This document shows, piece by piece, positions 8,803-55,396 of a DNA stretch of 64,000 bases. This DNA comes from Aminithiophilus ramosus (GTDB lineage: Bacteria > Synergistota > Synergistia > Synergistales > Aminithiophilaceae). The stretch is from the NCBI RefSeq assembly GCF_018069705.1, contig NZ_CP072943.1, forward strand, positions 186,001 through 250,000, read 5' to 3'. A model generated the notes under the pieces. The model was not told where the DNA came from. It ran no database searches and worked only from the letters and a program-made list of their open reading frames with translations. A program made the position numbers and the translations under genes. The first letter of the stretch is position 1, and every line of letters begins with the position of its first letter.

Positions 8803-8946
8803 GCGTCCGTCGGACTTGGCCTGGTGATCGTTGGTCGATACCCTTTTATGCTATCCAAAAGGAATGATTTGCCATTGAAGCCGGGCTTTCAGTTCCATGG
8901 ATCAAGCCAAGTCAGACTTCTCCGGGCAATCCCGACAGGCGTCTAG
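8799..8946 (+). repeat. MITE-like element, copy A (CTAG ends)
   Basis: A 148-bp unit begins and ends with CTAG and has imperfect terminal inverted repeats (left GCGTCCGTCGGACTTGG, right complement ACGCCTGTCGGGATTG). Its interior, including ATGCTATCCAAAAG near 8852, aligns over its whole length with the complement of 60435-60580. The left CTAG contains the TAG stop of the nuclease gene. The simplest reading is insertion at CTAG with duplication of that tetranucleotide. No coding capacity. Confidence 0.75.
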
Positions 8947-9093
8947 GCGTCTGTCGGGATTGCCCGGAGAGCGGATTGGGCTTGAACGGTGAGACTGAAA
9001 ACAGGGCTTCGCAGGGTAAAAGATTTCTTTCGGATCGCCGCATGGCAGGGCATGGATCACCGGTCGTCGGGCCAGGTCCGACAGACCCCCAGG
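8943..9093 (-). repeat. MITE-like element, copy C, head-to-head with copy A
   Basis: This copy begins at the CTAG that ends copy A and runs in the opposite orientation. The junction is a near-perfect inverted repeat of about 50 bp centred on the shared CTAG (about 8920-8970, core GACAGGCGTCTAGGCGTCTGTC). The far end is degenerate (GTCCGACAGACCCCCAGG near 9076-9093). The interior matches the repeat at 60435 only in part, so this copy is older. The pair fills the space between two convergent genes and could act as a transcription terminator. Confidence 0.6.
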
Positions 9094-18655: not shown

Positions 18656-18693
18656 GGCAGGTCTTCCGGAAGGTCCCTTCCGGAGGACCTGCC
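18656..18693 (+). terminator. Hairpin after the nucleoside-binding protein gene
   Basis: GGCAGGTC..CCGGAAGG pairs with CCTTCCGG..GACCTGCC with one internal mismatch region; loop TC. It lies between the binding-protein and ATPase genes. No T-run follows, so it is more likely an RNA-stabilising or processing hairpin than a full terminator. Confidence 0.55.
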
Positions 18694-26405: not shown

Positions 26406-26456
26406 CCGGACGCAACAGGAAGGCCCTCCGTCGGAGGGCCTTCCTGTTGCGTCCGG
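26406..26456. terminator. Bidirectional terminator between convergent genes
   Basis: A perfect 24-bp stem with the loop GTC (arms beginning CCGGACGCAACAGG) lies between the stop of the M20D gene at 26393 and the stop of the leftward surface-protein gene at 26473. No T-run follows on either strand, but the stem length and position support a terminator for both. Confidence 0.8.
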
Positions 26457-26472: not shown

Positions 26473-28863
26473 CTACCGCTCTTTCCTGACGGCCAGAAGG
26501 AGGGGCAGGGCGAGAAGGAGCAGGGCGGGATCGAAGCCCGAGGCCAGACTGCACCCTCCAGAGCCTCCGCCGGTGGCGGGGTCGTCGGTGCCTCCCGTGC
26601 CCGCGGCGGCGCTGATCAGGTAGAGGTTGGCCTGGACTCCGGCCTCGTCCCTGTTGAAATCGAAGCGGCCGTTCTCCGTCAGCGTCGCTCCGAGAGTCGC
26701 CGCGGCGGCGGCGAGTTTCCCTTCGGCGACGACGGCGACGTCGCCCGAGGCGGTCCGGCCCAGAAGGACGTGGAGGCTCTCGCCGTCGACGGCGACGGAG
26801 AAAGCGACTTCGCTCTCGTCACTGTCGAGGCCGTAGTGGAGCCTGCGCCGGATTTCGCCGTAGCCGTCGCCGAGGGTCTCGGCCAGCTTGGCGTCGCTCA
26901 GGTCGGCGGGCATCGTCGTGTCGGGCAGGAGCGGGGCGCCTCCGGCATCGGCGACGGGAAGGGGCGCGGCGTAGGCGATGTCCTCGGAGACGACGAAGAA
27001 GCCGACGAGGGGCGTCTCGAGGAGGTCCTCGGCCATGGCGGCCCGGATCAGCTGCATGCGGGCCTTCTCGGCGTTCGTCGACGTTCCCTTCTTGTTCTTG
27101 GCCCGGAGGTCGAGGAAGTTGCTCCGGTAGAAGAGGTCGGTGGCGCGGAAGAGGAAGCTCTCTCCCGTCGACTTGAGGGTCACCCGGTACCAGGCGTCGT
27201 CGCGGGTCAGATCCTCCACGGCCGTGGCGTCCCGAGCGAGGGTGAGGTCACCGGCGGCGAGGCCCAGCTGGTCGACCCAGAATTCCTCCGGTCCCTCCGT
27301 GTTCCATCCCGTCTCGATGGTCACGTCTTCGGGGTGGAAGAGGCCGTCGGACCAGACGGGGGCCATCATCTGGGAGATGCGGAAGGCCGCCGACTGGCAG
27401 AGGCAGATCTTGCCGTCGGCCTCCAGAACGGACGTGGCCATGTCGAGGCTGGCGACCTTGCCCGAGCCGTCGAGGTAGTCGAGCACGTCGGAGTAGAGGA
27501 CCGTCTCGGCGCGGAGGGGCTTCGTCCCCTCCTGGATGTAGAAGCGTCCCGTGAAGGGAAGGGCCTTGGCCTTCTCGACGAGGTCGGCCTTCATGGTCTT
27601 CAGCTCGGCCTTCTCCTCGGCCGTGGCCGTTCCCTTCTTGTTCTTGCTCCGCAGCTCGAGGAACTCCTCGCTGAGGTAGTTGTCGCGGGCCACGAAGGTG
27701 ACGCTTTCGCCCGTCGACAGGACGGTGACGCGGTACCAGGCGTCGTCGAGGGTCAGCTCCTCCAGGGCCGTGGCCGAGCCGCCGATGCCGTAGGAGAAGT
27801 TCTCCACGCCCATCTCGTCGACGAGCAGCCCCTCGGGGCCGTCGGTGTTCCAGCCCGTCTCGACGGTCACGTCCCAGGAGCGGAAGACGCCGTCCTCCCA
27901 GAGGCCCGAGGCCATCTGGGCGACGCGGTAGGCCGTGGCCCGGCAGAGGCAGAAGGCGGTGGCGCCGTTCTCCTCCTCCATGCAGGCCTCCTCCATGTCG
28001 AGAGTCTCGATGGCGCCGTCCTTGACCTCCTGGAAGCGGAGGGCCAGAGAGTCGAGGAAGGGGAAGACCTTGTTGGCGACGGCGGTGGCGTGGTCGACGA
28101 CGACGAGGTTCTCGCCGCCGGCGATCAGATTGTCGAGGGCCTGATCGTAGAGCTCGAGGTAACGGTCATAGACGGCCTGCTGTTCGTCGTTGAGATTGCT
28201 CAGGCCGGGATCGGAGGCGAGGGCGAGGACCTGGCTGCGGACGTCGAAGTAGTCGTCGGGGAAGGCGCTGTCGGCGAGATGGAGGTCGAAGACGTCGCCT
28301 GTCGACAGGATCTTCGCCCGGATCGAGTAGTAGGAGCCGTCCTCCATGGCCGAGGGGAGGGTGGCGGCGTAGAAGTAATCCTCCATGTGGAAGGGACCCT
28401 CGCGGACGACGCGGTTGCCCTCGCCGTCGACGACGTAGGTGTAGCCTCCCAGAGTCTCGTCCCAGGTGTAGGGGTTGTAGCCGTCGTAGAGCCTGACGGA
28501 ACAGCCGAAGACCCATCCCATCTCGAGCTGCACGTCGTAGGGGCGCAGGACGCCATCCTCCCAGTAGTCCGCCAGGGCTTCCATGAAGCGGAAGGAGGTC
28601 CCGCGGTTGAAGCATGTTCCCTCTCCGTCTCCGTCGGGACCGAAGCTGTCGACCCAGAAGGAGCCCTGGGCGATGTCGCCGAAGGCGTACTCGTTGACCG
28701 TTTCGCCGGGGTGGGTCTGGACCTGGACGTCTTCGGCCGTTCCGGTGGCCGCCGACAGGACGTCGACGCCCGATGCCGTCGCCGATGCCGCCAGTGCGAA
28801 GGCGAAGGCGAGACATAGGGCACCCTTAAGGAAACCGTTGCGGAAGAACGATACCATTCTCAT
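26473..28863 (-). CDS. Synergist-CTERM surface protein with three FmdE-like repeats
   Basis: The 796-residue protein has a signal peptide (about residues 10-31, ending SATASG) and a C-terminal sorting signal: Gly-rich GGGSGGCS, hydrophobic LLLLALPLLLA and tail RKER. This matches the Synergist-CTERM layout and predicts processing near the Cys and surface anchoring. Between them are three related repeats starting at about residues 84, 302 and 484, with CFNRGTSFRF, CLCRATAYRV and CLCQSAAFRI respectively, then DV.(V/L)E(T/M)GW, a stretch ending in STG(E/D), and NKKGT in repeats 2 and 3. The repeats resemble FmdE-type metal-binding domains, but that match is by eye. The promoter carries the operator shared with the nik operon, so a role in metal handling at the cell surface is plausible. 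Start at ATG 28863; MVSFF at 28857 is an alternative. Confidence 0.75.
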   Translation of the reverse strand: MRMVSFFRNGFLKGALCLAFAFALAASATASGVDVLSAATGTAEDVQVQTHPGETVNEYAFGDIAQGSFWVDSFGPDGDGEGTCFNRGTSFRFMEALADYWEDGVLRPYDVQLEMGWVFGCSVRLYDGYNPYTWDETLGGYTYVVDGEGNRVVREGPFHMEDYFYAATLPSAMEDGSYYSIRAKILSTGDVFDLHLADSAFPDDYFDVRSQVLALASDPGLSNLNDEQQAVYDRYLELYDQALDNLIAGGENLVVVDHATAVANKVFPFLDSLALRFQEVKDGAIETLDMEEACMEEENGATAFCLCRATAYRVAQMASGLWEDGVFRSWDVTVETGWNTDGPEGLLVDEMGVENFSYGIGGSATALEELTLDDAWYRVTVLSTGESVTFVARDNYLSEEFLELRSKNKKGTATAEEKAELKTMKADLVEKAKALPFTGRFYIQEGTKPLRAETVLYSDVLDYLDGSGKVASLDMATSVLEADGKICLCQSAAFRISQMMAPVWSDGLFHPEDVTIETGWNTEGPEEFWVDQLGLAAGDLTLARDATAVEDLTRDDAWYRVTLKSTGESFLFRATDLFYRSNFLDLRAKNKKGTSTNAEKARMQLIRAAMAEDLLETPLVGFFVVSEDIAYAAPLPVADAGGAPLLPDTTMPADLSDAKLAETLGDGYGEIRRRLHYGLDSDESEVAFSVAVDGESLHVLLGRTASGDVAVVAEGKLAAAAATLGATLTENGRFDFNRDEAGVQANLYLISAAAGTGGTDDPATGGGSGGCSLASGFDPALLLLALPLLLAVRKER

Positions 28864-28997
28864 GAGCGACAAAACTCCTCTCCAAAATAGCAAACTCCAA
28901 CAGCAGACGCGCAAGAAAGCGACCCAAGCACAACCGAACGGAGGAGCCGAACGACACTCCCGGCGGAGGGGCGGCCGTCCCCTCCGAAGACATCGGC

Positions 28998-29053
28998 TTA
29001 GTTCGATGAATCAAACTGAGCCGATGATAAACAAAAAAGAGAATCATTGTCAA
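28998..29053 (-). promoter_or_regulatory. Promoter and operator of the surface-protein gene
   Basis: On the minus strand TTGACA (29053-29048), 18 bases and TATCAT (29029-29024) are followed at once by the operator at 28998-29019 (core TTTGATTCATCGAA). The dyad extends to 28991-29026 as 17-bp arms with two mismatches around the central TC. The same operator occurs at three other leftward promoters in the window. Confidence 0.75.
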
Positions 29054-29099: not shown

Positions 29100-29879
29100 T
29101 CAGAGGGGCGTCGCCGCATCGAGGAGACGCCTCGAATGGATGTCGCCGACGGCGTGGAGGCGGGACAGGTCGTCGACCCTTTCGACGATGCGGCCGTCGT
29201 TCATGAAGAGGACGGCGTCGCAGAGGTAGGTCACGGCCGTCAGGTCGTGAGTGATGAAGAGAAGGGAGAGCCCCTCGTCGCGGCGGAGCTCCGCCAGAAG
29301 GTCCATGACCTGGACCTGGACGGAGACGTCGAGGGAACTCGTGGCCTCGTCGAGAAGGATGAAGCGGGGGCGGGAGGCGACGGCCCGGGCGATGCAGATC
29401 CTCTGGAGCTGACCGCCGCTGAGCTGATGGGGACGGCGGCGGAGAAGATCGCTCGAGAGTCCCACCTTCTCCAGAAGGGCGAGAACCCGCTCCTTCCTGT
29501 CTCTTGCGCCGTCGCGGCCTTTTCTCAGCGGCTCGGCGATGATCTCCTCGACGGAGAAGCGGGGGTTGACGGAGGTGACGTAATCCTGGAAGACGACGCT
29601 GCAGGGGTGGAAGGAGGCCCCTCGCCCGGTGCCGTAGAGGTTCTTCCCGTCGACGGCGACCTCACCTCTGTCGGGTCGAAGGAGGCCGACGAGGACCCGC
29701 CCCAAGGTGCTTTTCCCGCTTCCGCTCTCGCCGACGATTCCCAGGCAGCATCCCTCTTCGAGGGTCATGGAGAGGCCCTGGAGGACGGGGTGCTGGCGGC
29801 GGTGGAGAAGCCCTCCCCTGCGGAAGGCGACGTGGATGTCAGAAGCCCGTAGCAGCGGGGGCGAGGAGGGGTTCCTCAT
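29100..29879 (-). CDS. nikE: Nickel ABC transporter ATPase NikE
   Basis: The 259-residue ATPase has Walker [10 protein letters not shown] (about residue 51), signature LSGGQLQRICIARA and Walker B FILLDEATSSLD with the switch ITHDLTAV. It belongs to the oligopeptide/nickel ATPase family and is the last gene of a nikABCDE set. It overlaps nikD by about 40 bases. Specificity is inferred from the NikA-like binding protein; the ATPases alone resemble DppF/OppF. Confidence 0.85.
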   Translation of the reverse strand: MRNPSSPPLLRASDIHVAFRRGGLLHRRQHPVLQGLSMTLEEGCCLGIVGESGSGKSTLGRVLVGLLRPDRGEVAVDGKNLYGTGRGASFHPCSVVFQDYVTSVNPRFSVEEIIAEPLRKGRDGARDRKERVLALLEKVGLSSDLLRRRPHQLSGGQLQRICIARAVASRPRFILLDEATSSLDVSVQVQVMDLLAELRRDEGLSLLFITHDLTAVTYLCDAVLFMNDGRIVERVDDLSRLHAVGDIHSRRLLDAATPL

Positions 29880-30708
29880 GGCGCGATCGCTCCTCTCGGG
29901 GGGTCGTCGCCTTTCTGAAGGCGTCGAGCAGCATGAGACGGGTGTCGAAAAGATGGCCGGTCCTCCGCGACCTGGGGGCGGAACAGATCCGCCTCAGGTC
30001 TCCCTGTTCGATGACCTCGCCCCTGTCCATGACGAGCAGGTCGTCGGCGATGCGGGCCAGGACGCCCAGGTCATGGGAGATGAAGAGGACCGAACAGCGC
30101 CGTTCCCTTCGGACTCGGTCGAACTCCTTGAGGATCTCGTCCTGCGTCACCGTGTCGAGGGCCGTCGTCGGCTCGTCGGCGATGATCAGGTCCGGACCGA
30201 GGAGGAGGGCCAGGCCGATCATGACGCGCTGGAGCATGCCGCCGCTCAGCTGGTGAGCGTACTGCCTGAAGACGTCGTCGGGATGGCGGAGACCCATGAG
30301 AGTCAGGGCGTCGAGACTGCGTCGTCGTGCCTCGGCAGGGGAGAAGGGGCCGTGCTGGCGGACCGTTTCGACCATCTGGGAGCCGATGGAGAGGAGGGGG
30401 TCAAAGGCCGTCATGGGGTTCTGGAGGATCATGGCGATTCCCGATCCCCGGAGCGCGCGCATCTCCTCCCGTCGCAGCGACAGGAGATCGCGGCCCTTGT
30501 AGGCGACCGTTCCGCTGACGCGGTACTCCGGGCCGAGAAGGCCCATGACGCTCTTGCAGGTCAGGCTTTTGCCGCTCCCGCTCTCCCCGAGGATCCCCAG
30601 GCAGGATCCCTTTCGGAGTTCGAAGGAGACGTCCCGGAGCAGCCTTTTTCCCTCAGTGCCGGAGCGGACCTCGACGGAGAGATTCTTGACGGCAAGCAGC
30701 GTTTCCAT
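29839..30708 (-). CDS. nikD: Nickel ABC transporter ATPase NikD
   Basis: The 289-residue ATPase has Walker [10 protein letters not shown] (about residue 40), LSGGMLQRVMIGLALL and [16 protein letters not shown], followed by FISHDLGVLARIAD. It forms the asymmetric ATPase pair with NikE. The start at 30708 lies 12 bases after the nikC stop region, with AGGAGA upstream. The C-terminal 30 residues (from SRRTGHLFDTRL) are variable. Confidence 0.85.
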   Translation of the reverse strand: METLLAVKNLSVEVRSGTEGKRLLRDVSFELRKGSCLGILGESGSGKSLTCKSVMGLLGPEYRVSGTVAYKGRDLLSLRREEMRALRGSGIAMILQNPMTAFDPLLSIGSQMVETVRQHGPFSPAEARRRSLDALTLMGLRHPDDVFRQYAHQLSGGMLQRVMIGLALLLGPDLIIADEPTTALDTVTQDEILKEFDRVRRERRCSVLFISHDLGVLARIADDLLVMDRGEVIEQGDLRRICSAPRSRRTGHLFDTRLMLLDAFRKATTPREERSRHEEPLLAPAATGF

Positions 30709-30720
30709 GGCAGTCTCCTT

Positions 30721-31539
30721 TCATGCCCTCTTGGGGTCCAGGATGTCTCTCAGGCTGTCGCCCAGGAAGTTGAAGGCCGAGACGACGGCCAGGATGGCCA
30801 AGCCCGGGGCGATCATCAGAGAGGGGGCCTGCATCATGACGTTCTTGGCCTCGTTCAGAATGGCGCCCCATTCGGCCGTCGGGGCCTGGACGCCGAGGCC
30901 CAGGAAGGAGAGGGTCGAGATGTTCAGGATGACCCAGCCCGTGTCGAGAGAGGCGAGGACGAGGACTTCCGTGGCGACGGCCGGCAGGAGATGGCGGAAG
31001 AGGATGAAGGCCGTTCCCGTGCCGACCGTCCTTGAGTAGGCCACGTAGCCCCTGTCGACGTACTGAAGGACCGATCCCCGGATCATGCGGGCGTACCAGG
31101 CCCATTTGACGAGGATGTTGGCGATGATGACGTTGGACATGCCCGGCCCCAGCATGCCGACGACGGCGAGAATCATCACCTGGCTGGGAAAGGAGAGCAT
31201 GACGTCGCAGAGTCGCATGAGGAGCTCGTCGACGGGGCCCTTGGCGTAGCCCGAGAAGAGGCCGATGGAGATGCCCAGCCCCAGGGTGCAGGCCATGGTC
31301 ACAAGGGAGAGGAGGACCGTGGGGCGGATGCCGTGGATCAGCCGGGAGAGGACGCAGCGTCCCAGGTGGTCCGTCCCGAAGGGGTAGGCGGCGCTGGGGC
31401 CCTTGAGCTTGGCCAGGATGTTGACCTTGTTGGGGTCGTTGAGGGGGAGCAGGTCGGCACCGAGCCCCAGGAGGATGACGGCGGCGATGAGGAAGAGGGC
31501 GATGGCGGCCGTCCTGTCGCGCAGAAGTTCCCGCACCAT
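30721..31539 (-). CDS. nikC: Nickel ABC transporter permease NikC
   Basis: The 272-residue permease has an N-terminal helix, the PFGTDHLGRCVLSRLIHG segment characteristic of DppC/NikC permeases, and the EAA-type loop region (GYVAYSRTVGTGTAFILFRHLLP). About six membrane spans are visible. The ATG at 31539 is preceded by GGAGGACC on the minus strand. It forms the channel with NikB, whose stop lies 2 bases upstream. Confidence 0.87.
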   Translation of the reverse strand: MVRELLRDRTAAIALFLIAAVILLGLGADLLPLNDPNKVNILAKLKGPSAAYPFGTDHLGRCVLSRLIHGIRPTVLLSLVTMACTLGLGISIGLFSGYAKGPVDELLMRLCDVMLSFPSQVMILAVVGMLGPGMSNVIIANILVKWAWYARMIRGSVLQYVDRGYVAYSRTVGTGTAFILFRHLLPAVATEVLVLASLDTGWVILNISTLSFLGLGVQAPTAEWGAILNEAKNVMMQAPSLMIAPGLAILAVVSAFNFLGDSLRDILDPKRA

Positions 31540-31541
31540 GA

Positions 31542-32474
31542 TCAGGTCCTCCTCAGTCGGGGATCGAGATAGCCCTGGAGAAGGTCCACGGCGAGGTTGC
31601 AGAAGACGAAAAGGAATCCCATGATCAGGATATAGGCCTGAATGACGGGGTAGTCGCGGTTGAAGATGGCCGAGATGCAGAGCCTTCCGATGCCGGGCCA
31701 GGCGAAGATGCTTTCGACGAGATAGGTCCCGGCGATGAGCTGGGGGACGCTCATGCCCAGGGCCGTCAGACAGGCGTGAAGCGAGTTGCGGAAGACGTGC
31801 CTCAGCAGGATGGCCGATTCGGAGAGGCCTCGGGCCCGGGCGTAGAAGACGTAGTCCTCGCCCATGTTCTCGACCATCTTGTTGCGGATGAGCCTGATGT
31901 AGGTCGATATGTAGGTCATGGAGAGGGTCAGGGCGGGCAGAATCAGGCTCTGCCAGGAGTCGCGGCCGCTCGTGGGCAGGATGTCGAGCTTGAGGGCGAA
32001 AAGCCACATGAGAAGCAGCCCCAGCCAGTAGTTGGGCATGGCCGTGCCGATGAAGACGAAAAGGCGCAGAGCCCGGTCGAGAGGGCCCTGGGGGCGCAGG
32101 GCGCAGACGATGCCCAGGGGAAAGCTGACGAGCAGGACGAGGGCCAGAGAGGCGGCGGCCAGTTCGAGCGTCGCCGGGAGGGCCCGGAGGATCTCGCCGC
32201 CGACGGTCCTGTTGTCGTTGGTGAAGGTGTTGCCGAAATCGAGGTGGAGGCTTCTCCATAGCCATCGGACGTAGCGGAGGAGGAAAGGATCGTCGAGGCC
32301 CAGCTCGGCCCGCATCCCCTCGACGGCCTCCTCGGTGGGCACGATGTCGTTGATCCTCAGGATGACTTCGGCCGGATCGGAGGGAATGAGAGCGACGAGG
32401 CAGAAGGCGAAGAAGGAGACGCCCAGAAGGAGAGGGACGGCCAGCAGAAGACGTTTCAGGAAATAGCTTCGCAT
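31542..32474 (-). CDS. nikB: Nickel ABC transporter permease NikB
   Basis: The 310-residue permease begins MRSYFLKRLLLAVPLLLGVS, a typical first helix of DppB/NikB permeases, and has the EAA loop (YARARGLSESAILLRHVFRNSLHA). Six membrane spans are expected. It is separated from nikA by a 67-base spacer that holds a hairpin, which fits lower expression than the binding protein. Confidence 0.87.
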   Translation of the reverse strand: MRSYFLKRLLLAVPLLLGVSFFAFCLVALIPSDPAEVILRINDIVPTEEAVEGMRAELGLDDPFLLRYVRWLWRSLHLDFGNTFTNDNRTVGGEILRALPATLELAAASLALVLLVSFPLGIVCALRPQGPLDRALRLFVFIGTAMPNYWLGLLLMWLFALKLDILPTSGRDSWQSLILPALTLSMTYISTYIRLIRNKMVENMGEDYVFYARARGLSESAILLRHVFRNSLHACLTALGMSVPQLIAGTYLVESIFAWPGIGRLCISAIFNRDYPVIQAYILIMGFLFVFCNLAVDLLQGYLDPRLRRT

Positions 32475-32489
32475 CGGAAAACTCCTCCC

Positions 32490-32523
32490 CTCTTCCCCCC
32501 CTCGCGACGGAGGAGGGGAAGAG
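32490..32523 (-). terminator. Hairpin between nikA and nikB
   Basis: CTCTTCCCC (32490-32498) is complementary to GGGGAAGAG (32515-32523), a perfect 9-bp stem. It lies directly after the nikA stop on the transcribed strand and has no T-run; a role in 3'-end protection of the nikA message or partial termination is likely. Confidence 0.55.
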
Positions 32524-32541
32524 ACGGACGGTCCCGGGCCG

Positions 32542-34122
32542 CTAGTCGGCCAGGGACATCTTCTCGAAGGGAACCTCGAACTGCGAGGGATTGTAGGTGA
32601 CGCCGAGGACCCGGTCGCTGAAGATGGCCCTGTTGCGCTCGTAGGTCAGGGGCAGGTAGACGGCCTCTTCATGGAGCGTCGTCAGGATGGAGGTGAAGAG
32701 CTCCTGACGCCTGTCCGCGTCGGTGGTGACGAGGACCCTGGCGATCCGGTCGTCGAGGTCGGCCTTGCAGGCCAGCCCCTGCTGGGCGGCGTAGTCGCCG
32801 TAGACGACGGTTCTCATGGCGCTGAGGAAGGACTGGGGATCGTAGGGCGTCCCCCAGGAGATGTTGAAGACGATGTCGAAGTCGCCCGCCTTCTGGCGGT
32901 CGCGGTAGGACTGCTCCTCTTCGCCGAGGATCTTCAAGTCGACGCCCAGCTCGGCCCAGAGGCTCTGGAAGTATTCGGAGAGGGTCTTCTCGGAGACGCT
33001 GTTGCTGTTGTAGAGGAGCGTCATCTGGAGCGTCTCGCCCTGGCGGCTGCGGAAGGGCCGGCCCGCCTCGCGGACCCAACCGGCCTCGTCCAGGAGCCGT
33101 CCTGCCGCCTCGAGATCGAAGGCGTAGGACTTGAGGTCGACGTCGCAGTAGGGGACGGTGCGGGCAAGAACGGTGTCGGCGGGGCTTTCGATGCCGTTGA
33201 AGATCCCCTCGGAGAGGGCCTTCTTGTCGACGGCGTGCTGAAGGGCCTGGCGGACCTCTCGCTGGGTGAGGGCTCCCTTCGTCGTGTTGAGAAGGAGCAT
33301 GCGCGTCGAAACGGGATCGGAGAGAGAGGTGACGAAGCCCTTCTTTCCCCGGAAGCGCTCCAGCGTGTCGGCGTCGATCATGTTCTTGCCGTAGATCAGG
33401 TCGATCTCGCCCTTCTCGAGGGCCAGAACGCGCGTCTGGTTGTCGGGAATGACGCGGACCTTGATGGTCCTGATGGAAGGTTTCTCACCCCAGTAGTTCT
33501 CGTTGCGGACGAAGGTCGCCTGCTGATCGACGACGTTCTCGGCCAGGACGTAGGGGCCCGTGCCGATGTGGCCCGTCACGCCTTTTTTCGTCGTCCCCTC
33601 CTTCATGCACCGGGGAGAGATGAAACGCATGGGGCGGGTGACGCCCAGCTCGGTGAGCATGGGGAAGTAGGGCTCCTTGAGGCGGATCCGGAGGGTGTGG
33701 TCGTCGACGGCGTCGACGCCCTCCATGAGACGGACCATTTCCAGCCAGCCGTGGCGTTCGATGTTGTCCAGGACGGCGTCGAAATTGGCCTTGGCCGCCG
33801 CGGCGTCGAAGGGCTCTCCGTCGGAGAAGGCGACGTCCCGGCGGAGATGGAAGGTGTAGACCCGTCCGTCGTCGGAGATCTCCCAGCTCTCGGCGAGCCA
33901 GGGCTCGATGCCGTCAGGGGTGATCTTCACCAGGGACTCGTAGAGAAGGTTCTGGGCGTAGAGCTCGCCGCCGTAGAGGTGGGGGTTCAGGTCGCGGATG
34001 TCGCGGAAGTTGACGTAGACGAGGGTCTCCTTTTCCGAGGCGGAAGAGGGAGCGGCCAGGGAGAGAACTCCCAGGAAGAGCGATGCCAGGACGAGCGACA
34101 GGGCGAGACAGACCTTCTTCAA
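32542..34122 (-). CDS. nikA: Nickel-binding periplasmic protein NikA
   Basis: The 526-residue protein has a signal peptide (LALSLVLASLFLGVLSLAAPSSA) and is recognisably NikA: RDLNPHLYGGELYAQ-like start (IRDLNPHLYGGELYAQN), FVRNENYWGEKPSIRTI, DLIYGKNMI, LLNTTKGA and WGTPYDPQSFLSAMR all parallel E. coli NikA. It should bind nickel held by small organic ligands in the periplasm. In E. coli NikA the metal complex is contacted by His416 and aromatic residues; the corresponding segment here keeps W-G-x-P-Y-D-P but not the exact His, so the bound complex may differ. A short GCCCCC-GAA-GGGGGC hairpin (34149-34163) precedes the gene. Confidence 0.88.
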   Translation of the reverse strand: MKKVCLALSLVLASLFLGVLSLAAPSSASEKETLVYVNFRDIRDLNPHLYGGELYAQNLLYESLVKITPDGIEPWLAESWEISDDGRVYTFHLRRDVAFSDGEPFDAAAAKANFDAVLDNIERHGWLEMVRLMEGVDAVDDHTLRIRLKEPYFPMLTELGVTRPMRFISPRCMKEGTTKKGVTGHIGTGPYVLAENVVDQQATFVRNENYWGEKPSIRTIKVRVIPDNQTRVLALEKGEIDLIYGKNMIDADTLERFRGKKGFVTSLSDPVSTRMLLLNTTKGALTQREVRQALQHAVDKKALSEGIFNGIESPADTVLARTVPYCDVDLKSYAFDLEAAGRLLDEAGWVREAGRPFRSRQGETLQMTLLYNSNSVSEKTLSEYFQSLWAELGVDLKILGEEEQSYRDRQKAGDFDIVFNISWGTPYDPQSFLSAMRTVVYGDYAAQQGLACKADLDDRIARVLVTTDADRRQELFTSILTTLHEEAVYLPLTYERNRAIFSDRVLGVTYNPSQFEVPFEKMSLAD

Positions 34123-34200
34123 ATAAAACGACCTCCTCGATCGATTCTGCCCCCGAAGGGGGCGCGTTCTCCTCTTTTCCGACTTTTAAAAAAGAGGGAA

Positions 34201-35415
34201 TCAGGCTGGGGATTGAGGGACGACGCTCCTCCGGTTCGCTCTCTCCGACGTCGCCGCGTGGCGGCCGAGGAGCGCGGCGGCCATCAGCCCGACGAGGGTG
34301 AGACCGCCGATGAGCGAAAGGGGATGGAGCTCCCAGAGCCAGGCCGTCAGGGCCCCTCCCGAGGCGCCGGCGACGCCGGCGAAGAGGTAGAAGACGCCGA
34401 AGCAGACGCCCTGGCGCCGCTCGCCTCCCATTTCGGGGATCATGCTCAGGGCCGGCGGAAAGACGGTCATCATGCCCAGCGTCAGCAGCGTCGTCGTGAC
34501 GAGGGTGTTGACGGAGACGGGTCCGACGGATCCGACCCGCAGAAGCAGGAAGGGAAAGGCCAGGGCCATGAGGCCCATGCCCGCCGCCAGGCGCAGGGGG
34601 CGTGAAAAACGCCCCACGACGAAGCGGGAGAGAGGCATCTGGAGCGCGACGCTCAGAAGGGCCGAGAGGGTGAACAGGGCCGCCACGGAGCCGTCGTTGG
34701 GGGAGCTTAGGGGCAGCAGAAGGTAGAGCTGGTTGAACATCAGATAGTAGGCCGACATGAGAAGGCAGAAGATCAGGAAGTCCCTTCGCCGGAAGACGGC
34801 GACCCAGTCGGTCAGAACGGGAAGGGAGGAGTTCCTCTCCGTCCCCTCCAGGCGGGGGAGGTGGAACCACTGGAGGAGGAGAAGAAGAAAAAAGACGGCG
34901 GCGGCGACGGCGCAGAGAGTGGAAAATCCGTATCGGAGCAGGGCGAGGCCGCAGAGGGGCCCCGCAAGGGCGCCGGCCTGGCTGGTCACGTTCTGGAGGG
35001 CGTAGACGCTCTCCCTCTCGGGGTGATCCTCGGTCAGCCTGGCCAGAAAGGCCTGGTAGGCGGGAGAGAAGAGGGCTCCGGCCAATCCCGTGAGAAAGGC
35101 GGCGCCGACGACGGCCCAGGGACGGAGGGCGACGCCGAAGAGGCCGAAGCCCAGGACCCTCAGGGCGCAGCCGGCGAGGATGACCGTCTGGTAGTTGAAA
35201 CGGTCGGCCAAGGTTCCGCCGACCAGGAAGAGCCCCTGCTGGCTCAGCATGCGAAAGCCCATGACGAAACCGGCGAAGGCGGCCGACAGCCCCAGATCCT
35301 CGGTGAGATGGCGCGTCAGGTAGGGCAGAAGCATGTAGAAGCCGACGTTGAAGCCCAGATTGTTGACGAGAAGGACCTTGACGGGAAGGGGGAGGCTCAG
35401 GGCGAAGGAGAACAT
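34201..35415 (-). CDS. MFS transporter
   Basis: The 404-residue protein has twelve probable membrane helices and the MFS loop signature GGTLADRFNYQTVI (about residues 67-80). Its start at 35415 lies within the end of the ATP-grasp gene (19-base overlap) with GGAAAGG upstream, so the two are translationally coupled. Directly downstream is nikA, 79 bases away. In this setting it most likely exports, or imports, the product of the ATP-grasp ligase. The direction is inference. Confidence 0.85.
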   Translation of the reverse strand: MFSFALSLPLPVKVLLVNNLGFNVGFYMLLPYLTRHLTEDLGLSAAFAGFVMGFRMLSQQGLFLVGGTLADRFNYQTVILAGCALRVLGFGLFGVALRPWAVVGAAFLTGLAGALFSPAYQAFLARLTEDHPERESVYALQNVTSQAGALAGPLCGLALLRYGFSTLCAVAAAVFFLLLLLQWFHLPRLEGTERNSSLPVLTDWVAVFRRRDFLIFCLLMSAYYLMFNQLYLLLPLSSPNDGSVAALFTLSALLSVALQMPLSRFVVGRFSRPLRLAAGMGLMALAFPFLLLRVGSVGPVSVNTLVTTTLLTLGMMTVFPPALSMIPEMGGERRQGVCFGVFYLFAGVAGASGGALTAWLWELHPLSLIGGLTLVGLMAAALLGRHAATSERANRRSVVPQSPA

Positions 35416-36707
35416 GACGACCTTTCCGACGCGCCGCCGCACCCGCAGGATCGGGGGCGGATGAGGGCCGTCAGGCGGGAGAGGGCCTCCTCGGCCATCC
35501 TCCCCGCGCCCAGGCCTTCCCGATCTTCGGCGAGGACATGGCCCAGGTAGCAGTCGTTGTCGTCCGGCCGGAGGACTTCCGTCCCCGGCGCAGAGAGAGA
35601 GCAGCGGACCACGCCGGGGCTGGCTTTCGCCTCCGCCTCGCCCCGAAAGCCGGCGAGAATCCCCTCGGAGGAGGGAAGAAGGAAGGCCACGGCGGCGCTC
35701 TTCGGCCGCTCCGCCTCGACCGCTTCTCTCGGCTCCTCTCCCAGGGCGACCTCGACCATCTGCGTCAGGGGGTTCAGCCCCGTCACCCGCTCGACCAGCT
35801 CGGAGATGTAGTTGCCGCCGATGCGGGGATTCATCTCGATGATGCGCGGTCCCGACGACGTCATGCGGATCTCGACGTGGGCCGTTCCCTCGACGTAGCC
35901 CATGGCCGAAAGAGCTTCGGCGGCGTGGGCCCCGATGGCTCGGGCCGATTCGGCGGGGAGGTCGGCGGGGAACATGTGTCCCCGCTCGACGAAGCCCCCC
36001 TCGCCGCCCAGCCTCTTGTCGGTGATGCCCGACAGGAAGATCTCCCCCCGACGGGCGCAGCATTCGACGCTGAACTCCTCGCCGGAGAGGTACGATTCGA
36101 CGAGGGCGCCCGAGGCTCTCTTTCTCCCCCTCGGGTTGGCGGGGTGAGAGAGGACGGCCCCGATGGCCCTTCGCATCTGATCGACGGAGTGGACCTTGCG
36201 GACGAGGGTGCTGCCGCTCATGTCCAGAGGTTTGACGATGGCGGGCAGACCCGTCGCTCCGGCGGCCGCCTCGGCCTCCTCTTCCGACAGGGCAAGGAAG
36301 AAGGAGGGGCCGGGCAGTCCCTTACGGCGGAGGGCCTGGCGCATGAGGTGTTTGTCCGTCATCGAGGCGAGGACCTCGGCGGGGGAGGAGGGGAGGCGGA
36401 ACCTCTCGGCGACGGCGGCGACGAGGGGGAGATAGCCGTCGCAGCTGCTGATCACGCCCGAGATCGCCTCGTCGCGGAAAAGCCCCTCGCAGAGGGAAAG
36501 GAAGGAGGCCTCGTCGCGGGTATCGCAGCGCAAGACGCGATCGGCCAGGGCCACGACGGGGTGGAGGCCTCCGTCGGGACTGTAGCGGTTATAGAAATCG
36601 GGGTCGTCTGTCGCCAGAATGAAGCGGTGACCGAGCTCCCTGATCTTGCGGGGCAGCAGGATCCCCGAGGCGAAACGCCAACTTTCGATCATCAGCAGCG
36701 TCTTCAG
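35397..36707 (-). CDS. ATP-grasp carboxylate-amine ligase
   Basis: The 431-residue frame from ATG 36692 starts MIESWRFASG. A better start is a CTG at 36707, five codons earlier (CTG-K-T-L-L-M-I-E), which completes the first beta strand and has AAGGAGG exactly 8 bases upstream. The protein has the pre-ATP-grasp fold, then LPAIVKPLDMSGSTLVRKV (ATP-binding loop, about residue 155), VESYLSGEEFSVEC, and the Mg/ATP site AHVEIRMTSSGPRIIEMNPRIGG. Such enzymes join a carboxylate to an amine through an acyl phosphate and include L-amino-acid ligases and siderophore synthetases. Position at the head of the MFS-nikABCDE run suggests it makes a small peptide-like metal chelator. Confidence 0.82.
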   Translation of the reverse strand: MKTLLMIESWRFASGILLPRKIRELGHRFILATDDPDFYNRYSPDGGLHPVVALADRVLRCDTRDEASFLSLCEGLFRDEAISGVISSCDGYLPLVAAVAERFRLPSSPAEVLASMTDKHLMRQALRRKGLPGPSFFLALSEEEAEAAAGATGLPAIVKPLDMSGSTLVRKVHSVDQMRRAIGAVLSHPANPRGRKRASGALVESYLSGEEFSVECCARRGEIFLSGITDKRLGGEGGFVERGHMFPADLPAESARAIGAHAAEALSAMGYVEGTAHVEIRMTSSGPRIIEMNPRIGGNYISELVERVTGLNPLTQMVEVALGEEPREAVEAERPKSAAVAFLLPSSEGILAGFRGEAEAKASPGVVRCSLSAPGTEVLRPDDNDCYLGHVLAEDREGLGAGRMAEEALSRLTALIRPRSCGCGGASERSSCSPSP

Positions 36708-36778: not shown

Positions 36779-36838
36779 TTAGTTTGATGAATCAAACCGA
36801 GGAGCACAAGAGTAACGGTTGCTGCTGTGACTTGTCAA
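36779..36838 (-). promoter_or_regulatory. Promoter and operator of the ATP-grasp/MFS/nik operon
   Basis: Minus-strand TTGACA (36838-36833), 18 bases, TACTCT (36814-36809), then the operator at 36779-36800 (core TTTGATTCATCAAA). The operator occupies the expected start point and early transcribed region, so a repressor bound there would block initiation. This is the only clear promoter found upstream of the seven-gene run. Confidence 0.78.
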
Positions 36839-37082: not shown

Positions 37083-37222
37083 AAGTAATGGGGCCTCGCG
37101 AGAGGCCCCATTACTTCTTCGGGGGGGGGTGGTGATGGGAACATTCTGTCTTTCCTGCATGGGCAGAAGGAAAGAGGCAGAAAAGGAGGAAGGGATGGAA
37201 TCTTTGTTTGATCTCTCAAACT
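37083..37222 (-). ncRNA. Putative structured small RNA, copy 1
   Basis: A transcript from the promoter at 37257-37229 would run about 140 nt leftward and end in a perfect 15-bp stem with a four-base loop (37083-37116). It also contains a CTTTCCT/AGGAAAG hairpin (about 37150-37173), a run of nine C, and CCTCCTTTTC (37189-37180), complementary to a Shine-Dalgarno region. A second copy lies 440 bp away. Three base pairs of the terminal stem differ between copies by compensatory changes, which supports a folded RNA. No convincing reading frame with a ribosome site is present. Confidence 0.6.
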
Positions 37223-37257
37223 AAGGAGAGTATAGAAGCCCTTCTCTTTCCTGTCAA
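37203..37257 (-). promoter_or_regulatory. Promoter and operator of small RNA copy 1
   Basis: TTGACA (37257-37252), 17 bases, TATACT (37234-37229) on the minus strand, a near-consensus sigma70 promoter, followed directly by the operator at 37203-37224 (core TTTGAGAGATCAAA). The same arrangement is found at 28998, 36779 and 37650. Confidence 0.8.
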
Positions 37258-37275
37258 GCCCCTTTAGACATAAAG

Positions 37276-37300
37276 CGGACCAGATTCGTCCGGTTTTCTT
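37276..37300. terminator. Hairpin between the two small-RNA units
   Basis: CGGAC (37276-37280) pairs with GTCCG (37288-37292), followed on the plus strand by GTTTTCTTT. It separates the promoter of copy 1 from DNA upstream and has a counterpart upstream of copy 2. Confidence 0.5.
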
Positions 37301-37528
37301 TCGCCGCGAAAAACCTCCTGTCCTCCCGTAGGAGCCTCTACCTTTTCGGCCGGAGCGGGAAGGCTCCGGCCCGGAGGAGCCGAGGGTCCCGGCGCCTTCG
37401 CCGAGGGAGCCGGTGACGGCGGGTTTCGGGAAAGAGACGTCCCGGAGGCCGCCGGTGCGACGGACGGCTTCGAAAAGAGAAGCGATTGTCCCTTCTCGGT
37501 GACAGCGATCGTTTTTTCCAGGTCACAT

Positions 37529-37669
37529 AGAAGTGACAGGGCCTCGCGGGAGGCCCTGTCACTTCTTCGGGGGGGGGTGGTGATGGGAACGTTCTGCCTT
37601 TCCTGCATGGGCAGAAGGAAAGAGGCAGAAAAGGAGGAGGGGACGGGATTTTGTTTGATCTCTCAAACT
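37529..37669 (-). ncRNA. Putative structured small RNA, copy 2
   Basis: This is a paralogue of copy 1 with the same order of elements: operator, CCTCCTTTTC (37637-37628), CTTTCCT/AGGAAAG hairpin, nine C, and a terminal 17-bp stem (37529-37566). Relative to copy 1 the stem carries A-T to G-C, T-A to C-G and G-C to A-T replacements that all keep pairing. The identical C-run and anti-Shine-Dalgarno segment suggest these are the active parts. Alternatively the units are duplicated attenuators. Confidence 0.6.
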
Positions 37670-37705
37670 AAGGAGAGTATAAAAGCCTCTCCCCCTTTCT
37701 GTCAA
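37650..37705 (-). promoter_or_regulatory. Promoter and operator of small RNA copy 2
   Basis: TTGACA (37705-37700), 18 bases, TATACT (37681-37676), then the operator at 37650-37671, identical in sequence to the one at 37203-37224. Confidence 0.8.
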
Positions 37706-37720
37706 GCCCCTTCCGACATG

Positions 37721-37748
37721 AAAACGGACCGAGTCGGTCCGGTTTTTC
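37721..37748. terminator. Bidirectional terminator upstream of small RNA copy 2
   Basis: CGGACC-GAGTC-GGTCCG (37725-37741) is flanked by AAAA on the left and GTTTTT on the right, so it can terminate transcription on both strands. It isolates the small-RNA promoter from the peptide-transporter region to its right. Confidence 0.7.
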
Positions 37749-39729: not shown

Positions 39730-39751
39730 ACGCTCTCGGTCGGGCTCTTCG

Positions 39752-39792
39752 CCCGTCCCCTCCCCCTCCGAGCCGGAGGGGGAGGGGACGGG
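39752..39792 (+). terminator. Hairpin after the oligopeptide-binding protein gene
   Basis: A 19-bp GC-rich stem (arm beginning CCCGTCCCC) with loop AGC lies 23 bases after the stop codon. A weak T-run (CCTTTTCC) follows 9 bases later. It probably stops or pauses part of the transcription before the permease genes. Confidence 0.7.
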
Positions 39793-39860
39793 CACCCGGC
39801 CTTTTCCCTGATCTGTCCGGGCGGAGCCCCCGACGCTTCCGCCGAGGAGGAGGGACTGCC

Positions 39861-51734: not shown

Positions 51735-52053
51735 CGCGACGGCCACCCTATCGAGCCGTCGGGAAAGGCCCGAGGGAAAAAGAGGGCTCTTCGTGTCCCA
51801 CAGGAAGAGCCCTCTCCGCCCGCAGGGGACCGGCCGCGAGGTGAGGGGCAGAGCCGCGATGAAGGTCTGCCGCGCCTCTCGGCCGATTTCCCTCCCGAGG
51901 CGCCGCGCCCTTTCTTCCCGACGCCTCCCCTGGAGCTTCGCGATGCCCGAAAGCGCCCTTTCGTGCCGGCACCATCTCCGCGACGGATAGCCCGATGGGT
52001 TAGGAAGAGGGGATCTGCCTGCCTTCGACAGACCACATTGAGGGGGAGAGAAC
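51735..52053 (+). other. Spacer between TAXI protein and TRAP permease genes
   Basis: The 319-base gap contains the hairpin at 51782-51816 and otherwise GC-rich sequence with no supported gene. GGGGGAGAG just before 52054 is the ribosome site of the permease. An additional promoter here is possible but not visible. Confidence 0.4.
51782..51816 (+). terminator. Hairpin after the TAXI binding-protein gene
   Basis: AGAGGGCTCTTC (51782-51793) pairs perfectly with GAAGAGCCCTCT (51805-51816). There is no T-run. Like the hairpins after the other four binding-protein genes, it probably sets a higher message level for the binding protein. Confidence 0.65.
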
Positions 52054-55156: not shown

Positions 55157-55285
55157 GGCAACGCCGGGGTCGGGTCCTCCAGGGAGCCTCAGGCCCAGAT
55201 CCTGCCGGGGGCTCTGTCGGGAGGTGCTCCTTCGCTCTCTTCCCTCGTCGCGACGGACAGGCCTTTCGGAAAGGAACTCTTTTTT

Positions 55286-55333
55286 CGACGGAGCGAGCCG
55301 AAACCCCCCCTGGGGTTTCGGCTCGCTCCGTCG
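55286..55333. terminator. Long perfect hairpin after the alcohol dehydrogenase operon
   Basis: A perfect 22-bp stem with loop CCCT (arms starting CGACGGAGCGAGCC) lies 130 bases after the last gene of the operon. A T-run precedes it but none follows on the plus strand, so it may be a Rho-assisted or processing structure. Confidence 0.55.
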
Positions 55334-55396
55334 GAGGGGAAGCAAACCCGAATCAGCAGGTCTTTCAAGACGAACTCCGTCGGATCCGCGGATGGG

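Follow-up and report, generated by a model that had tools for sequence, protein, structure and literature searches.

Iron-sparing small RNAs recur across bacteria without a common sequence. RyhB is controlled by Fur, and IdeR is a DtxR-family protein. RyhB of enteric bacteria is described as an Hfq-dependent small RNA of iron starvation, and ryhB is duplicated in some species (PMC9410917). In Pseudomonas aeruginosa, PrrF1 and PrrF2 are reported as the products of two similar tandem iron-responsive small RNA genes that stem from duplication and are controlled by Fur (PMC7948967), and both are described as Hfq-dependent (PMC9410917). FsrA of Bacillus and IsrR of Staphylococcus, which are also under Fur, carry unpaired C-rich stretches that bind Shine-Dalgarno regions; in the account of IsrR, a hairpin directly adjoins one of the C-rich regions, and the length of another differs from species to species (PMC9410917). 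MrsI of Mycobacterium tuberculosis is presented in the same paper as a small RNA with an iron-sparing role and with IdeR as its predicted repressor (PMC9410917). For the Synergistota, the table of a 2022 review gives one annotated small RNA (PMC9029176), and no iron small RNA of this phylum was found in the literature searched, at the level of titles and abstract openings.

Two units on the minus strand of the 64 kb stretch analysed here (the window) can be compared with these systems. With a probability of roughly two in three, they are tandem duplicated genes for small regulatory RNAs under an iron-sensing repressor, most likely a DtxR-family protein with a FeoA domain, to judge from the sequence features set out below. 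The sequence-only reading of this DNA had proposed two paralogous units lying 440 bp apart, and these were borne out, copy A at 37083-37240 and copy B at 37531-37687, with a start-to-start distance of 448 bp. The copies share 89% identity over 122 nt and 97% over 38 nt (about 90%), and over the alignment that runs from the -35 box through the terminal stem, 157 of 176 columns are identical. Upstream of the units a weak likeness reaches a small hairpin (37272-37297 in A, 37721-37746 in B) and then ends; 36 of the 45 aligned columns agree in this stretch, the hairpin included. Each unit has the same order of elements, namely a promoter, a palindrome, a C/U-rich stretch, a central hairpin, a run of nine C residues and a perfect stem of 15-17 bp. 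The promoters are sigma70-like, TTGACA-17-TATACT in A (37229-37257, minus strand) and TTGACA-18-TATACT in B (37676-37705, minus strand); each agrees with the consensus at 11 of 12 positions, and two such promoters were found where 0.2 would be expected from shuffled sequence. The predicted transcripts measure about 140 nt in A (37083-37222, with the start placed from the -10 box) and about 139 nt in B (37531-37669), with folding z-scores of -7.0 and -8.5, respectively. What stands of the proposed tandem small RNAs is a pair of paralogous, separately promoted, operator-controlled non-coding units with small-RNA-like anatomy, and what is weakened is the use of stem changes as proof of a special fold. 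A plus-strand reading, in which a Shine-Dalgarno-like GAAAAGGAGG is followed by an ATG in A, was rejected, as its frame has only 9 codons and copy B lacks the ATG.

The palindrome, GTTTGA-N4-TCAAAC, lies just past the -10 box in both units, and its core begins 7 bp past the box in each; the operator sequence, TTTGTTTGATCTCTCAAACTAA, is the same in A (37203-37224) and B (37650-37671). The regulon of this operator, which the sequence-only reading missed, points to function. Within the window a third operator (36779-36800) lies upstream of a group of ATP-grasp, MFS and nickel-type ABC genes, and a fourth (28998-29019) lies upstream of the gene for an 813-residue protein (26473-28914, minus strand). 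This protein has no clear Pfam domain and gives weak matches to a Synerg-CTERM sorting signal and to FmdE. The metal-transport group (29100-36692, a putative operon) encodes, all on the minus strand, an ATP-grasp ligase with an L-amino acid ligase domain (35397-36692), an MFS exporter (34201-35445), a NikA/CntA-type binding protein (32542-34122), a NikB-like permease (31542-32474) and two ABC ATPases (29839-30708 and 29100-29879). The group resembles a metallophore system of the opine or dipeptide type, with an ABC transporter of the nickel/staphylopine type.

As both units share the strand and the operator of this operon and lie directly upstream of it, they might be leader segments of the operon, with read-through via the terminal stem acting as an attenuator. 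This is unlikely, given that the operon has an operator of its own at 36779 near its first gene (with a perfect TTGACA upstream and a weak -10 box), that each unit closes with a complete hairpin of the gene-end type, and that two successive complete units would be odd for a single leader.

The reading as separate small RNA genes gains from the wider distribution of the operator. The extended palindrome, with up to three mismatches, was found six times in the own genome (G000) and not once in the reversed control. Operator places in this genome belong to both RNAs, the ATP-grasp/MFS/nickel-type ABC group, the 813-residue protein, a two-domain ZinT-like lipoprotein and a flavodoxin, and four further one-mismatch places have no evident iron link. 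The operator core, with at most one mismatch, was counted 10 times against 0 in the reversed control in the own genome, 10 against 1 in the other genome of the species, 9 against 0 in the congener G001 and 5 against 0 in G072; counts were near or less clear of the control in G052 (4 against 3) and G041 (10 against 4), and G002 had only 1 against 0. In G001 the operators precede a flavodoxin gene, feoAB, a DUF4198 gene and a feoB that follows a DtxR-family gene. The G041 sites lie before two feoA/feoB pairs and the DtxR-family gene, those of G072 before a feo locus and a gene resembling the one beside feoB in G001, and G052 shares with the own genome a site before the gene of the ZinT-like lipoprotein. 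The distance of 7-8 bp from the -10 box to the core is also found at the ZinT genes of G000 and G052, at feoAB of G041 and at one G072 site.

An operator matrix, trained on 18 sites and tested on stretches outside the training set, gave scores of 20.9 and 12.4 at the own dtxR-feoA-feoB locus, 18.7 and 16.6 at the own feoAB, 15.8 at the own DUF4198 gene, and 17.5 and 11.3 at the feo locus of G002; the best non-operator score in the 64 kb of the window was 10.3. By the same matrix no site was detected at the second DtxR gene of G002 (L195), and two of the four FeoB loci of the own genome are without a clear operator (best scores 10.4 and 4.3). The four FeoB-like proteins of this 3.1 Mb genome are encoded at C1:2938011, 1251741, 266691 and 2512537. 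A combined pattern of -10 box and operator, with at most two mismatches, was found in 32 of 185 genomes, the control also giving many matches, and only places with 0-1 mismatch were used (G000, G066, G041, G071 and G072). The exact operator pattern was found in 51 stretches of the named genome collection, from which records near the window were possibly excluded; two come from one Synergistota record (CP074691.1, strain L-13), and the 49 elsewhere are taken as chance.

The two RNAs thus have, over their promoters, a putative repressor site that they share with iron-uptake genes, as would be expected of iron-responsive small RNAs. The operator set would represent an iron-type regulon with a repressor that covers the start site, and since the same switch precedes iron-uptake genes, the RNAs are probably made when iron is short. 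The likeliest repressor is the DtxR-family protein encoded with feoB (C1:2939967-2940656 of the own genome), which has a FeoA domain at its C-terminus, as gene order and the sites before its own gene suggest. The best NCBIfam matches of this regulator are to MntR models, far below cut-off, and the own genome also encodes four Fur-family proteins; for these reasons we can only infer the identity of the metal and of the repressor. The nearness to MntR models, together with the ZinT-like gene and the nickel/staphylopine-type ABC group under the same operator, would suit RNAs that are made in answer to another metal (manganese, zinc or nickel) and have their targets in the use of that metal. We consider this improbable, as the operator is common to feoAB in several species and to flavodoxin in two. 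The replacement of ferredoxin by flavodoxin is a standard response to iron starvation.

Several observations were made at other places with operators or FeoB-like genes. A gene for an Rrf2/IscR-type regulator adjoins the operator-controlled flavodoxin gene in G000 (L132, C1:2704000-2716000) and in G001 (L134), and an IscU-like gene, recognised by eye, lies nearby at the G000 locus. In a genome of another family (G014, C3:202793, L026), a three-mismatch operator is found directly upstream of a cobalt transporter gene that by eye is CbiM-like. At C66:8887 of G001 (L138), an ABC permease-like gene is preceded by a one-mismatch operator and a -10 box, and the gene on the far side of this operator resembles the gene that follows the hydrogenase genes in G000. 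Near one FeoB-like gene of G000 (C1:2509586-2511839, L191) there are repeats of a few hundred bp with a repeated VGNPPPLRGGRGQDAHAPRKNQ-like frame.

The RNAs themselves are narrowly distributed. A DNA search of 61 genomes for homologues returned the own genome only. The covariance search that the sequence-only reading had suggested was run on 185 Synergistota genomes and recovered full-length homologues in two (G000 and G066); as both belong to one species and have unchanged stems, the search adds no new covariation and no refutation. Neither of the two congeners (G001, G002) nor any further species among the 185 genomes yielded a full-length homologue, and conservation thus amounts to retention in two genomes of one species. 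At E values up to 0.1 there were matches in 11 genomes. Those of G041, G072, G052 and L058 of the own genome were rejected as homologues, since they match almost wholly via the terminator-like hairpin, and the remaining weak matches (E 0.006-0.1, including L049, L052 and L054) are read as chance; the hairpin is palindromic, which accounts for its matches on the plus strand. PrrF and FsrA have Rfam families, and RyhB is also among the Rfam families. In the window there was no Rfam match at gathering level and, at E up to 5, only chance matches of microRNA or snoRNA type, so that the covariance models do not place the RNAs in the PrrF, RyhB or FsrA family.

The terminal stems are perfect helices with loops of 4 nt, of 15 bp in A (37083-37116, minus strand) and 17 bp in B (37529-37566, minus strand), the former being terminator-like without a U tract. 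Three compensated pairs distinguish B from A (A-U/G-C, U-A/C-G and G-C/A-U), as had been reported from the sequence; in the 15-pair helix three pairs change on both sides and 12 are invariant. The further claim that this is direct covariation evidence for selection on an RNA fold is weakened, as the comparison covers one duplication (n = 2), the stem looks like a gene-end hairpin, 59 of 500 shuffles scored at least as high in the covariation control, and template switching is possible. Slid versions of the comparison gave 0 compensated pairs, and the chance of three matched complementary pairs from six changes placed at random over 30 arm positions is about 3e-5, a figure that assumes independent mutations and ignores hairpin-templated correction. 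With two sequences only, the statistical weight of the covariation is small, as the shuffles indicate. Paired changes also arise without selection, by template switching within a perfect palindrome, and the compensation may mean that the hairpin has been kept or that it corrects itself in this way; alone it is no proof of a special regulatory fold. The transcript closes with the covarying stem, for which a terminator or 3′ stabiliser is the simplest reading, and this stem is the weakest part of the small-RNA case.

Hairpins of this kind are frequent in the window. Stems of at least 11 bp (with at most one mismatch) number 20, and three first-order Markov controls had 5, 4 and 7. Eleven stems reach at least 14 bp; two of them are those of the units, seven of the other nine lie 14-128 nt past a predicted gene end (at 117, 14, 17, 19, 22, 47 and 128 nt), and the remaining two are not at gene ends. 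A T-run is absent after all seven. Likewise, both terminal stems of the units are missing from the terminator prediction: the stem of an intrinsic terminator is present and the T-run that should follow its G+C-rich helix is absent. The U tract is the terminator feature of Hfq-dependent small RNAs. Given these gene-end hairpins, and given that the covariance-model matches in other Synergistota are mostly to such hairpins, the best reading of the terminal stem is a 3′ end of the kind usual in this DNA. Very long gene-end hairpins of 16-24 bp, perfect or nearly so and without a U tract, are seen at 8919-8970, 18656-18693, 26406-26456, 39751-39793, 51781-51815 and 55284-55335, and the lineage may have an unusual way of ending or stabilising its transcripts.

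The unpaired C-rich stretches were named as conserved single-stranded parts by the sequence-only reading, and they need some revision. Within CCTCCTTTTC, the CCUCCUU is clearly unpaired in prediction (in copy A its first C only about half the time), whereas the last three bases, UUC, pair in a central hairpin that was absent from that reading. The anti-Shine-Dalgarno-like motif CCUCCUUUUC, to which this CCUCCUU belongs, is located at 37180-37189 in A and 37628-37637 in B, and the central hairpin of 12 bp at 37144-37182 in A, with a CC bulge, and at 37592-37630 in B, all on the minus strand. The run of nine C residues (37121-37129 in A, 37569-37577 in B, minus strand) is present and predicted to be unpaired in both copies, but its length is not fixed, as copy A of the same-species genome G066 has C15. 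The six extra C residues (L056) may reflect slippage or an assembly artefact. Both CCUCCUU and the C run are complementary to Shine-Dalgarno sequences. That the units instead encode a small protein, in a common minus-strand frame from an ATG in the loop of the central hairpin (MQERQNVPITTPPRRS), is very unlikely, although the first 16 residues are identical between copies with both changes there synonymous, and C15 keeps the frame. The ATG lacks a Shine-Dalgarno sequence, with pyrimidines prevailing in the 30 nt before it, whereas purine-rich sites are easily found at this genome's genes, and beyond the terminal stem, which both frames cross, they part and reach lengths of 86 and 114 residues.

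As regulatory RNAs, the transcripts probably act in the manner of FsrA, IsrR and PrrF, with the CCUCCUU and the C run masking ribosome-binding sites. When iron is scarce, the repressor would leave the operator over the predicted start site, and both RNAs would be made, ending at the terminal stem. The CCUCCUU beside the central hairpin and the C run could then pair with the Shine-Dalgarno regions of mRNAs for iron-rich proteins, lowering their translation and sparing iron; the mRNA of the HydC-B-A [FeFe]-hydrogenase would be one candidate target.

A search of the own genome for GAHAAGGAGG followed by ATG produced 22 candidate target sites; the variable base is A in 14 of them and C in 8. The 14 GAAAAGGAGG-ATG sites include the antisense strand of RNA A, and iron proteins are not visibly enriched among the others. 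The hydC operon comprises genes for HydC, for a HydB that resembles NuoF and for an NADH-dependent [FeFe] hydrogenase of group A6. At the Shine-Dalgarno sequence of hydC, a predicted duplex of 16 bp with one bulge forms with RNA A (-25.7 kcal/mol; -22.7 for RNA B). The genome contains a single exact copy of GAAAAGGAGGNAAGGGA, which is complementary to RNA A but for one bulge, and this copy lies at the hydC start; relaxing the pattern adds no place with one mismatch and 17 with two, and the total at up to two mismatches (18) equals that of the control (18). Among 313 start sites (duplicates included) from the window and 10 own-genome stretches, 15 bind RNA A and 68 bind RNA B at least as well as hydC does, and the best site of this set for the 5′ parts of both RNAs is at the neighbouring NikB-like permease gene. 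In G001 the hydC start region was not found in the one stretch looked at. The hydC mRNA is thus a fitting iron-sparing candidate that was found post hoc and is no outlier in the background, and its pairing with RNA A would require partial opening of the central hairpin.

A more specific proposal, which we regard as tentative and rather doubtful, is that a DtxR-type iron repressor controls a duplicated Synergistota RNA that masks the ribosome-binding site of HydC-B-A and arose independently of the Fur-linked RyhB, PrrF, FsrA and IsrR. If this were true, a fermenter would shed one of its largest iron sinks and re-route its electrons at low iron, with flavodoxin made in parallel, and a testable link would be drawn between iron status and hydrogen metabolism. 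The operator offers a concrete iron-type motif for the Synergistota with named genes behind it, and a pair of RNAs under such a DtxR-like operator would be another independent origin of iron-sparing small RNAs.

Compared with the known systems, the Synergistota pair differs from PrrF1/PrrF2 in its probable DtxR-type repressor, and it gave no Rfam match to PrrF or to RyhB; FsrA and IsrR showed no sequence relation in the Rfam search, in which IsrR is possibly without a model. MrsI comes from a different phylum and is likened here by type of control, not by sequence. With RyhB the pair would share a role in iron starvation and the duplication of the gene, and with IsrR a C-rich region that abuts a hairpin and another of variable length. 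By analogy, then, the two RNAs resemble PrrF1/PrrF2 in their tandem, duplicated arrangement, FsrA and IsrR in unpaired C-rich stretches suited to Shine-Dalgarno binding, and MrsI in what would be control by a DtxR-type repressor.
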